DNA of 49,516 bases, taken from assembly GCA_021817785.1 (NCBI GenBank), contig JAKAFY010000011.1:1-49516 (forward strand), written 5' to 3'. The notes beneath the pieces are model-generated. The model searched no databases. It had not been told where the DNA came from and saw only the letters and a program-made list of their open reading frames with translations. Positions 1 to 49,122 of the stretch are shown piece by piece. A program made the position numbers and the translations under genes. How positions within the stretch are numbered: the stretch's first letter is position 1; each line of letters starts with the position of its first letter. This stretch comes from a bacterium. Lineage in GTDB: Bacteria; Patescibacteriota; Microgenomatia; UBA10105; UBA927.

Positions 1-732
1 TTACCACGTACTCGCAAACTCATCGATCAGATCTCCCATATAGCGCACCACCGGGATGACGGATGGATAATTCATCCGGGACGGTCCCACGATGCCGATG
101 GCTCCCGATACGTGCGGTGTTTTGAATTTATGGTAAATAAATCCGCACTGGGTGAGCGCTCCGTTGGACAAATCGTCCCCGACCAGTGTCAGAAACGGAT
201 CATCGTGCTGTTCCAGGACGTGCCACCAGAATCCGTACTCGTCCAGCGTCCCAAACAGTTCGTGCGTCAGCTGGTAATCAAAAAATTCAGGCATCTCCAG
301 GATATTTGCCGCACCCGCGTAATACAGATCCCCCTCATTGGTTGCCGTAATTGCCAGCGTTTTTGTTTTTTCCGCAAGTGCTTTCGTCGCTTCCCGCAAT
401 AATTTATCGATTTCCTGACGATAATTCCAAATCTTATCCTTCACGGCCACTTCTTCGGCGACCGACATATCTTTGGTCTTCATGAGCTGTTCCACGTAGT
501 ACTTCATCGCCACCGGTGTGGGACTTCTTCCTGCCGACGTATGCGGCTGGTTGAGCATGCCGATTTCGGTCAAATGCGCCATCTCGTTTCTGATGGTCGC
601 AGGCGACACGCCCAGGTTGTATTTTTTCTCCAGGGTTTCGCTGCCCACAGCTTCCGCCGTCGCGATATATTCGTCGATTATCGCTTTCAGAATCTGTATT
701 TGTCGTGGTGTCAAATCTGCTACCGGATCCAT
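1..732 (-). CDS. hrcA: Heat-inducible transcription repressor HrcA, short form
   Basis: HrcA represses chaperone genes by binding the CIRCE operator, and GroEL normally keeps it active. Residues 7-70 hold the family's winged-helix DNA-binding domain, with the typical segments VSPATIRNEMAHL and PHTSAGRSPT. The rest resembles the GAF-like core. At 243 residues it is about 100 shorter than most HrcA proteins, so the inserted dimerisation part is probably reduced. The stop codon is at bases 1-3, so the gene is complete. The start ATG at 730-732 sits at the inner edge of a palindromic element (734-872) and has no Shine-Dalgarno site next to it. CIRCE copies lie upstream of this gene and of groES, which supports the assignment strongly. 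Confidence 0.95.
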   Translation of the reverse strand: MDPVADLTPRQIQILKAIIDEYIATAEAVGSETLEKKYNLGVSPATIRNEMAHLTEIGMLNQPHTSAGRSPTPVAMKYYVEQLMKTKDMSVAEEVAVKDKIWNYRQEIDKLLREATKALAEKTKTLAITATNEGDLYYAGAANILEMPEFFDYQLTHELFGTLDEYGFWWHVLEQHDDPFLTLVGDDLSNGALTQCGFIYHKFKTPHVSGAIGIVGPSRMNYPSVIPVVRYMGDLIDEFASTW

Positions 733-733
733 A

Positions 734-872
734 CCAGGTTGTGAAATTTCGACTGTTGCGTTATACGCTCACGAAATGTATCTTTCCTTTCATACACGAA
801 ACAAAATTACTATACTCAGGTAGGCTGCTCAATCGCGACACATTAGAAGCGTGTCGAAATTCTACTACCTGG
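734..872 (-). repeat. Palindromic element copy A at the hrcA start codon
   Basis: This 139-bp element has inverted ends: CCAGGTTGTGAAATTTCGAC at the left and the complement of CCAGGTAGTAGAATTTCGAC at the right. It is flanked by direct copies of CATA (730-733 and 873-876), which read TATG on the minus strand. The inner TATG contains the hrcA start codon and the outer one lies 10 bases after the hrcA -10 box. Inside are a hairpin (CGACAC-attagaagc-GTGTCG), a second copy of the end motif (CTCAGGTAG, complement CTACCTGAG) and a small GCGT-tat-ACGC hairpin. A related copy lies at 48969-49109. It is either a MITE-like insertion or a structured leader RNA. No transposase is seen. Confidence 0.75.
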
Positions 873-877
873 CATAT

Positions 878-904
878 TTAGCACTAATATACATTGAGTG
901 CTAA
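878..904. promoter_or_regulatory. CIRCE operator of hrcA
   Basis: The sequence TTAGCACTA-N9-GAGTGCTAA matches the CIRCE consensus TTAGCACTC-N9-GAGTGCTAA with one mismatch. It overlaps the spacer and -10 box of the hrcA promoter. It also lies 59 bases upstream of the divergent gene at 963, whose own promoter starts 19 bases to the right, so HrcA might affect both. Confidence 0.93.
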
Positions 905-914
905 ATCCTGTCAA
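886..914 (-). promoter_or_regulatory. hrcA promoter
   Basis: On the minus strand there is a TTGACA box (914-909), a spacer of exactly 17 bases and TATATT (891-886). The predicted start of transcription near 879 places the whole palindromic element in the 5' leader of hrcA. The CIRCE site covers the spacer and -10 box, so bound HrcA should block RNA polymerase. Confidence 0.85.
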
Positions 915-44486: not shown

Positions 44487-44558
44487 TGGGCGCGCTTGGG
44501 ATCGGACCAAGGACATCTACTTTATAAGAGTAGCGCTCTACCACTGAGCTACGCGCCC
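44487..44558 (-). tRNA. tRNA with anticodon UAU, probably tRNA-Ile
   Basis: The minus strand folds as a 72-base tRNA: acceptor GGGCGCG/CGCGCCC, D arm GCTC-AGTGGTA-GAGC, anticodon stem CTACT/AGTAG with loop CTTATAA, five-base variable loop and T stem CTTGG/CCAAG. The loop puts UAU in the anticodon, for the Ile codon AUA. Base 73 is A and CCA is not encoded. The T loop is TCCGATC, so position 55 is C instead of the nearly universal U. Most bacteria read AUA with a CAU tRNA modified by TilS, so this anticodon is unusual. Confidence 0.9.
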
Positions 44559-48526: not shown

Positions 48527-48967
48527 TTATTCCGTCGTCCGCACTATTTTTCCGTGAATGGATTTCAGCATATAATGTGCCTGCTTGAGTTGCCGTTCAC
48601 ACCACTCGGCCAGCCATCGCCACGAACTCATAAGGCTCTGGTGCAGTCCCTGTGCGATTTGGTCGTCGGTCAAGGGCAGCGTTACCGCCACAGCAGCGGC
48701 AGGCGGAGTAGCCGCCGGTCCCACGGCTTGTACTCCGAGATTCTGTATTCTCGGGGGCAATATGACCGTCGTTGGGTGGATGGTGACTCCGGAATTTGCC
48801 ACCTCGCGGGGCAATGTGGTTTCCTGTCCGATTTCCTGCAGAAGCGGCGCTTCGGCAAAGCTTATATGCGGACCGGTCTCTTTCGCCATGCTTCCGGACG
48901 GAGACGGCGTACCCGCCGGTGACGGTGGTGTTTGTGACGTATGTGATTGGGGCAGTGTATCCGTCAT
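48527..48967 (-). CDS. Pro-rich small protein, partner of the TraD-like ATPase
   Basis: This 146-residue protein has a disordered Pro/Thr/Ser-rich first half and a helical end (about 100-146) with SLMSSWRWLAEWCERQLKQ. No signal peptide or family is recognised. The start ATG (48965-48967) lies at the inner edge of palindromic element copy B, without a Shine-Dalgarno site, the same geometry as hrcA. It ends 8 bases before the ATPase gene, so it probably acts with it, for instance as a small coupling or regulatory subunit. Confidence 0.65.
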   Translation of the reverse strand: MTDTLPQSHTSQTPPSPAGTPSPSGSMAKETGPHISFAEAPLLQEIGQETTLPREVANSGVTIHPTTVILPPRIQNLGVQAVGPAATPPAAAVAVTLPLTDDQIAQGLHQSLMSSWRWLAEWCERQLKQAHYMLKSIHGKIVRTTE

Positions 48968-48968
48968 A

Positions 48969-49109
48969 CCAGGTAGTGAAATTTCGACCTTGGCGTTTTA
49001 CGCGTTAGAGAAATTCCGACATCCTTTCATAATACAAACTATTTCTGTCATTCCAGGCAGCTATTGAACGCACTTTGAAACCAAAGTGTGTCAAAATCCT
49101 ACTACCTGG
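48969..49109 (-). repeat. Palindromic element copy B at a start codon
   Basis: This 141-bp element is related to copy A at 734-872. It starts CCAGGTAGTGAAATTTCGAC and ends with the complement of CCAGGTAGTAGGATTTTGAC. CATA direct copies flank it (48965-48968 and 49110-49113). The inner hairpin here is CACTTTG-aaac-CAAAGTG, differing in sequence from copy A while keeping a stem at the same place. The middle end-motif is CCAGGCAG. Shared stretches include TCCTTTCATA and GCGTttTACGC. The inner CATA holds the start codon of the Pro-rich gene. Confidence 0.75.
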
Positions 49110-49122
49110 CATACTATTATTC

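Follow-up and report, generated by a model that had tools for sequence, protein, structure and literature searches.

The seg genes of phage T4 encode free-standing GIY-YIG homing endonucleases, are often promoterless and rely on host transcription; one of them, segB, lies between tRNA genes (PMC2988022). Rickettsia palindromic elements are palindromic mobile elements of about 150 bp that occur in essential genes of a reduced genome (PMC10969869). In the rRNA genes of CPR bacteria, according to the part of the source available to us, there are GIY-YIG-coding insertions unlike group I and group II introns, together with many ORF-less ones under 200 bp (PMC11270868). The element family described here shares part of its make-up with each of these systems and with prokaryotic MITEs, and none of them has its target or its architecture when compared with PMC2988022, PMC10969869 and the available part of PMC11270868.

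The likeness to the T4 seg genes lies in small mobile GIY-YIG nuclease genes. The seg genes, however, occupy fixed intergenic places and copy themselves into alleles, whereas the element here is multi-copy, has terminal palindromes, target duplications and nuclease-free satellites, and sits at the start codons of many unrelated genes. Many unrelated genes are occupied within one genome, which is not the pattern of homing into allelic empty sites only. With MITEs (PMC10969869) the family has in common short, non-autonomous copies, terminal inverted repeats, target-site duplication and ends shared with a longer coding element. The marks of a transposable element or MITE found here are multiple non-orthologous sites with empty orthologs, inverted repeats with a duplication, and a related, putatively autonomous element with the same ends. 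The usual partners of MITEs are DDE-type insertion sequences. The text of the MITE review mentions neither GIY-YIG nor start codons (PMC10969869). Rickettsia palindromic elements are likewise palindromic, mobile and tolerated in essential genes, but they are located within coding regions and translated in frame; here the insertion point is the start codon itself, and none of the 65 frames opened by an outer ATG is fused to the gene. The CPR rRNA insertions also combine GIY-YIG-coding and short ORF-less forms within the same phylum, but in the available part of that source they are sparse, lie in rRNA genes and are reported without start-codon targeting or palindromic ends (PMC11270868). A literature search of open-access full texts, with most subscription journals outside its scope, found no description of an element with a start-codon target.

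The window, the whole stretch of 49,516 nt analysed here, belongs to a genome of 1.28 Mb in 38 contigs from Candidatus Gottesmanbacteria (Patescibacteria). A sequence-only reading had described a palindromic element between two TATG copies at the hrcA start and a second, equally placed copy. Both are present, as TATG-(139 nt)-TATG at hrcA and with 141 nt between the TATG copies ahead of a 146-aa ORF (Table 1). That reading had placed the outer TATG ten bases behind the hrcA -10 box, and the box (TATATT, 891-886) indeed lies ten bases ahead of the outer ATG, within a CIRCE-like repeat (about 904-878). The outer ATG also starts the short frame that had been reported, MPGSRISTRF-stop (10 codons). 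The CCAGG...CCTGG inverted ends are likewise present and recurring, but the arms, although near-palindromic, are unequal in type: nearly all elements have one GTAGTAGAA-type and one GTAGTGAAA-type arm. Both copies folded far better than shuffled sequences (z -4.3 for copy 1 and -3.9 for copy 2). The 146-aa ORF behind copy 2 had no Pfam match; its ortholog in the sister genome G005 is 67% identical, and the site there is empty. An Rfam covariance-model scan of the window only found no intron or other family, the sole match being a tRNA (44487-44558).

Table 1. Positions of the two element copies and of the neighbouring features in the window
Feature	Position	Strand	Remark
Element copy 1	734..872	(-)	139 nt, CCAGG...CCTGG, at hrcA start codon
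Outer TATG of copy 1	873..876	(-)	original target site / left target-site duplication
Inner TATG of copy 1	730..733	(-)	right duplication, gives present hrcA start codon
Closing stem P0, 5' arm	853..872	(-)	CCAGGTAGTAGAATTTCGAC
Closing stem P0, 3' arm	734..753	(-)	GTCGAAATTTCACAACCTGG
Internal CTACCTG	817..823	(-)	alternative partner of 5' arm (hairpin P1)
Crossing helix PK1, 5' strand	849..852	(-)	ACGC
Crossing helix PK1, 3' strand	765..768	(-)	GCGT
Crossing helix PK2, 3' strand	754..760	(-)	CGCAACA
Crossing helix PK2, 5' partner in copy 1	around 836-843	(-)	imperfect
AAAGGA motif in copy 1	785..790	(-)	
hrcA promoter	878..914	(-)	TTGACA 914-909, CIRCE-like repeat, -10 TATATT
hrcA	1..732	(-)	Pfam PF01628, E 6e-17
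Element copy 2	48969..49109	(-)	141 nt
Outer TATG of copy 2	49110..49113	(-)	
Inner TATG of copy 2	48965..48968	(-)	start codon of 146-aa ORF
146-aa ORF behind copy 2	48527..48967	(-)	

Genus and family genomes were searched with a covariance model built from 13 copies. About 15 copies were found in this genome and about 100 were recovered in one Gottesmanbacteria family. Within the genus, G002 had about 12 copies, G003 nine and G004 one, and the same search found none in G001, G005 and G006. Carriers made up 12 of the 24 family genomes, and G011 and G021 each reached up to about 20 copies. The occupied genes in this genome include hrcA, ftsZ, serS, alaS, atpD, rpsP and those for thioredoxin and a class I tRNA synthetase (hrcA, ftsZ and rpsP were checked with Pfam, the others named from translations), and occupied genes mostly differ from genome to genome. 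The end sequence CCRGGTAGTRRA occurred 8+7 times in this genome and its reversed version 0 times; the reversed control had no match in the four genomes of the end census. In a class-wide search for CCRGGTAGTRRA, only G257 stood out beyond the family, the others being near background.

Copies within one genome had a median identity of only 62-75%, so no very recent burst is visible in this genome. A near-identical pair of elements at two contig starts of G011 is the best sign of recent movement. Tandem copies with one TATG in common (L221, L224) and nested copies (L201, L284, L295) were also found. Mini-palindromes of about 33 nt, consisting of little beyond the two ends, are nested in other copies (L201:538-723; L295 in G019), and the one in L201 has an apparent AAA duplication.

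The proposed check of whether orthologous sites lack the element gave clean empty counterparts. For 30 of 35 filled sites, the ortholog in the element-free sister G005 (1.2 Mb compared) could be aligned from the start, and the element was absent. At rpsP, for instance, the filled site reads TTATG-element-TATGCTAAAA and the empty one TTATGCTCAAA. The hrcA copy was found in one of seven genus genomes (this one), all six other hrcA genes being without it; four of these read GTGCTAATATGGATG, and this genome reads GTGCTAAATATG-element-TATGGATC. Most copies at start codons retain at least part of a 3-5 base duplication. The census counted TATG 51 times, TAT 11, ATGA 6, TATGA 4, and CATGA and AATG once each, and sixteen copies had no recognisable duplication. 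Because TATGA, ATGA, CATGA, AATG and TAT variants occur besides TATG, the duplicated bases originate in the target.

Translational bypassing in T4 gene 60 (PMC5009743) resembles this arrangement in that a homing-endonuclease-linked insert has matching flanking codons and the gene stays expressible. Here, however, the matching codons are both AUG starts, and the outer AUG is absent in 28 of the 93 copies. The outer reading frame stops at random places. Conserved translational coupling via this frame was rejected, the frame not being conserved.

The covariance-model search of related genomes that the sequence-only reading had proposed gave matches that sit at start codons and are not scattered. 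When elements were found by their ends, the start codon lay 0 or +1 base past the element in 93 of about 100. The remainder comprises nested copies, a few located in a -10 box (L202, L280), one before a GTG start, and copies at contig edges. An upstream sense frame lies directly before the element at 44 of 92 sites, about half, and 25 of these 44 have no -10 box. Boxes resembling a -10 were enriched all the same (43 of 92 sites versus 15 of 92 in the control window), so that sites are both promoter-proximal and operon-internal. A mobile element aiming at leaderless starts, as had been suggested, is therefore upheld for start codons and not for a restriction to leaderless ones. The transcription bubble at leaderless promoters as the target is weakened by the 25 operon-internal sites without a -10 box, despite the enrichment. 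Separately, in L202:6918-7053 and L280:1030-1103 (G011), the element lies in the -10 box of the downstream gene (TATACT, TATAAT), with TAT/ATA duplications. At operon-internal sites without a left ATG (L117, L127, L256), the left flank often ends exactly in GGAG, as though the element directly adjoined the former Shine-Dalgarno site.

One explanation for this preference is untargeted transposition with survival bias, in which any (T)ATG is entered and survival is limited to correctly oriented start-codon insertions. The start codon is the one harmless way into a gene, and the sister genome is 92% coding. Non-coding TATG that are not starts are numerous in G005, however (598 versus at most 810 start-like), and are almost never occupied. 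Starts accounted for 93 of 97 copies, compared with at most 57% expected if any non-coding TATG hit survives, a generous expectation that considers non-coding TATG only and treats any intergenic ATG followed by 30 open codons as a 'start' (P = 6e-18, indicative since the copies are not fully independent). We therefore consider survival bias unlikely to be the explanation. Because start codons are short and only locally defined, and leaderless and operon-internal ones are both hit, finding them would have to use information beyond four bases.

The sequence-only reading had offered, as its second proposal, a structured leader RNA with alternative pairing, and the structural part of that proposal holds in a set of 61 copies. 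Co-variation is seen in the closing stem (CCAGG/CCTGG, CCGGG/CCCGG, CTAGG/CCTAG), and the compensated stem changes that had been named as a check thus appear as several pair types. The 5' arm also matches an internal segment, forming an alternative 5' hairpin; the two pairings are mutually exclusive and both co-vary. Two further co-varying pairings cross each other as a pseudoknot, ACGC with GCGT and CATTGCG with CGCAATG, the second also occurring as CTTTGCC/GGCAAAG, TGTTGTC/GACAACA and TCATGCG/CGCATGA. Own partners were better than shuffled ones in 2000 of 2000 permutations for each of the three pairings (61 copies), in tests that are inflated by the relatedness of the copies. The multiple compensated pair types, despite this relatedness, speak for a genuine fold of the single strand. 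The motif AAAGGA is kept in most of the copies of about 140 nt (sense 54, antisense 1). It is unlikely to be a working Shine-Dalgarno site, lying about 50 nt from the AUG.

A reaction at the RNA level would have the element joined to or excised from mRNA 5' ends and reaching DNA by reverse transcription, like an intron or spliced leader. The sense orientation of AAAGGA, the single-strand structure with crossing helices, the two AUGs brought together by the closing stem and the use of both leaderless and operon-internal starts would suit such a reaction. We nevertheless regard it as quite unlikely, given that no Rfam intron match was found within the window and that target-derived duplications of 3-5 bp suit staggered DNA breaks better.

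Members of 310 bp with the same ends (L282, L285, L292-L294) encode an intact 89-aa GIY-YIG nuclease (Pfam PF01541, E about 1e-17), and members of 204-241 bp, which align with its gene, are deletion derivatives. Relatives of the nuclease with solved structures include UPF0213 and SLX1. SLX1 is a structure-specific nuclease, and the relatedness to it is consistent with a folded or branched strand being recognised. Proteins closely related to the nuclease (72-100% identity) were found in six genomes, all of them carriers, each within these ends at a start codon (6 of 12 carriers versus 0 of 12 non-carriers, Fisher P 0.014). This genome has no close intact nuclease, the best being 46% identical, so its copies would be relics, or would have been moved by something lost or unassembled. 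A profile search found no sequence similarity between the interior of the class of about 140 nt and the nuclease gene; what the two have in common is ends, target and duplications. Descent of this interior from the nuclease gene was not supported by that search, and our claim is limited to the shared ends. Since ends, target and duplication are common with the coding form and the interior sequence is not, this class would be best called a satellite.

Strong inverted repeats lie within the nuclease codons of L282 and L285 (AGATTATGTTCTTTT/AAAAGAACATAATCT and GCAAAACGC/GCGTTTTGC), and therefore the coding strand itself folds. More distant GIY-YIG genes stand directly against tRNA genes in many family genomes (L318, L304 in this genome, L302, L305, L306, L307, L313, L319 and others). 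On visual inspection of such loci (L318, L304 and L302, for example), a duplicate of the initial part of the tRNA was apparent. The tRNA gene thus seems to be regenerated, in parallel to the start-codon elements.

Another transposase, such as an IS200/IS605-type Y1 enzyme (RAYT) acting on the palindromes, with the GIY-YIG gene as a passenger, is very unlikely to be the mover. The hairpin ends, the short palindromic non-autonomous copies and the insertion beside a tetranucleotide recall IS200/IS605 and REP/RAYT, insertion of a palindrome on the 3' side of a fixed tetranucleotide is reminiscent of IS200/IS605, and Y1 genes are present in four of seven genus genomes, with five in this genome. The family, however, has neither a link to nor co-occurrence with Y1: a model search found no element end near any Y1 gene, G003 (98% complete) is without Y1 despite its nine copies, and G001 and G005 have Y1 and no element. 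The duplication here is target-derived (CATGA, AATG), whereas IS200/IS605 elements are not known to have a target-derived duplication. The same two variants led us to reject an IS605-like scheme with the right-hand TATG supplied by the element itself. In G001 and in this genome (L107, L108), a RAYT-like Y1 gene unrelated to the element occupies the same place, flanked by a Y-family polymerase gene and metK.

When 85,000 genomes were searched with the nuclease alignment, a second family with other ends emerged, whose members lie in other Patescibacteria (Yanofskybacteria, Doudnabacteria, Liptonbacteria and further bins). Its layout is ATG-CCCAGTAATACAA...TTGATATACTGGG-(T)ATG. The left-end pattern occurred in 9 of 380 genomes of the phylum, with up to 16 copies, and a reversed control had no match. 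Of 30 places examined, 29 end at a start codon, and the target genes, identified by translation, include gyrA, rplF, fpg and dnaB among others. Short members measure 104-234 bp and those with GIY-YIG 309-312 bp. The duplications are TATG, AATG and CATG, and in 23 of 25 testable cases the N of NATG agrees between the left and right flanks. The nuclease shares the reading frame of the outer ATG (MPSNTT...MFFYVY) and so appears to be translated from the start of the host gene. Tree analysis placed the start-codon nucleases in two supported clades within a set of GIY-YIG genes, many of them next to tRNA genes. The second family is an independent one that has both GIY-YIG and short versions.

A regulatory leader selected by the host, that is, a structured 5' leader (translational switch) kept and spread since it regulates genes, would agree with the co-varying closing stem, alternative 5' hairpin and crossing helices and with the position always directly ahead of a start codon, but it is highly improbable: the occupied genes vary from one sister species to the next without a shared theme (ribosomal proteins, tRNA synthetases, ftsZ, dnaG, lon, transport), half of the genomes are without the element, the outer frame ends at random, and a mobile element is indicated by the duplicated target bases, by copies in tandem or nested in one another and by the versions that encode a nuclease. 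The differing gene sets and the genomes without the element also led us to reject a pure leader RNA or riboswitch as the main account. An on/off switch is not needed to account for the element. The first of the two original proposals, a mobile element, is largely right, considering the empty sites, the target-derived duplications, the mostly non-orthologous genes and the tandem and nested copies. The element is a mobile-element family and more than a leader RNA alone; the family is real, mobile and targeted to start codons.

We consider it probable that the 139-nt sequence at hrcA is a non-autonomous, MITE-like satellite of a start-codon-targeting GIY-YIG element that is only about 310 bp at full length. 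Genome comparison establishes mobility over evolutionary time, sense insertion at start codons, duplication of target bases, renewal of the start codon, a fold that is conserved and a nuclease form with the same ends; that the nuclease moves both forms we infer. The element enters in sense orientation at an NATG start codon, and 3-5 target bases including the ATG are duplicated. The outer copy of the duplication remains with the promoter or upstream gene. Since the inner copy becomes the new start codon, the reading frame is left untouched, and removing the element and one duplication restores the ancestral site. With its start codon regenerated, an essential gene tolerates the insertion, which is hard to reverse. 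Nuclease from intact copies may open start-codon sites and act in trans on the structured ends of short copies. The folded strand, with its closing stem, crossing helices and alternative 5' hairpin, is probably what the nuclease recognises, and the fold probably also permits ribosomes to initiate at the AUG beside the stem. Start codons might be found by direct NATG cutting combined with strong survival bias, by way of R-loops or mRNA, or through translation-coupled access.

We propose only tentatively that such elements form a class of minimal transposons. Here, a structure-specific GIY-YIG nuclease would serve as transposase, recognising the folded strand of its own palindrome and choosing start codons as such through mRNA, translation or R-loops, beyond four bases. 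The satellites would keep essential genes readable either by letting translation initiate next to a pseudoknotted hairpin or through a hop from the outer AUG to the inner one.

If true, this would give a GIY-YIG nuclease a transposase-like role. It would also account for the palindromic leaders and unusual 5' ends that essential genes have in Patescibacteria genomes. The family provides about 100 natural structured leaders, downstream of which translation has to begin with no Shine-Dalgarno site close by. It is also a clean example of a parasite that renders itself harmless, and difficult to dislodge, by rebuilding precisely the site it breaks.
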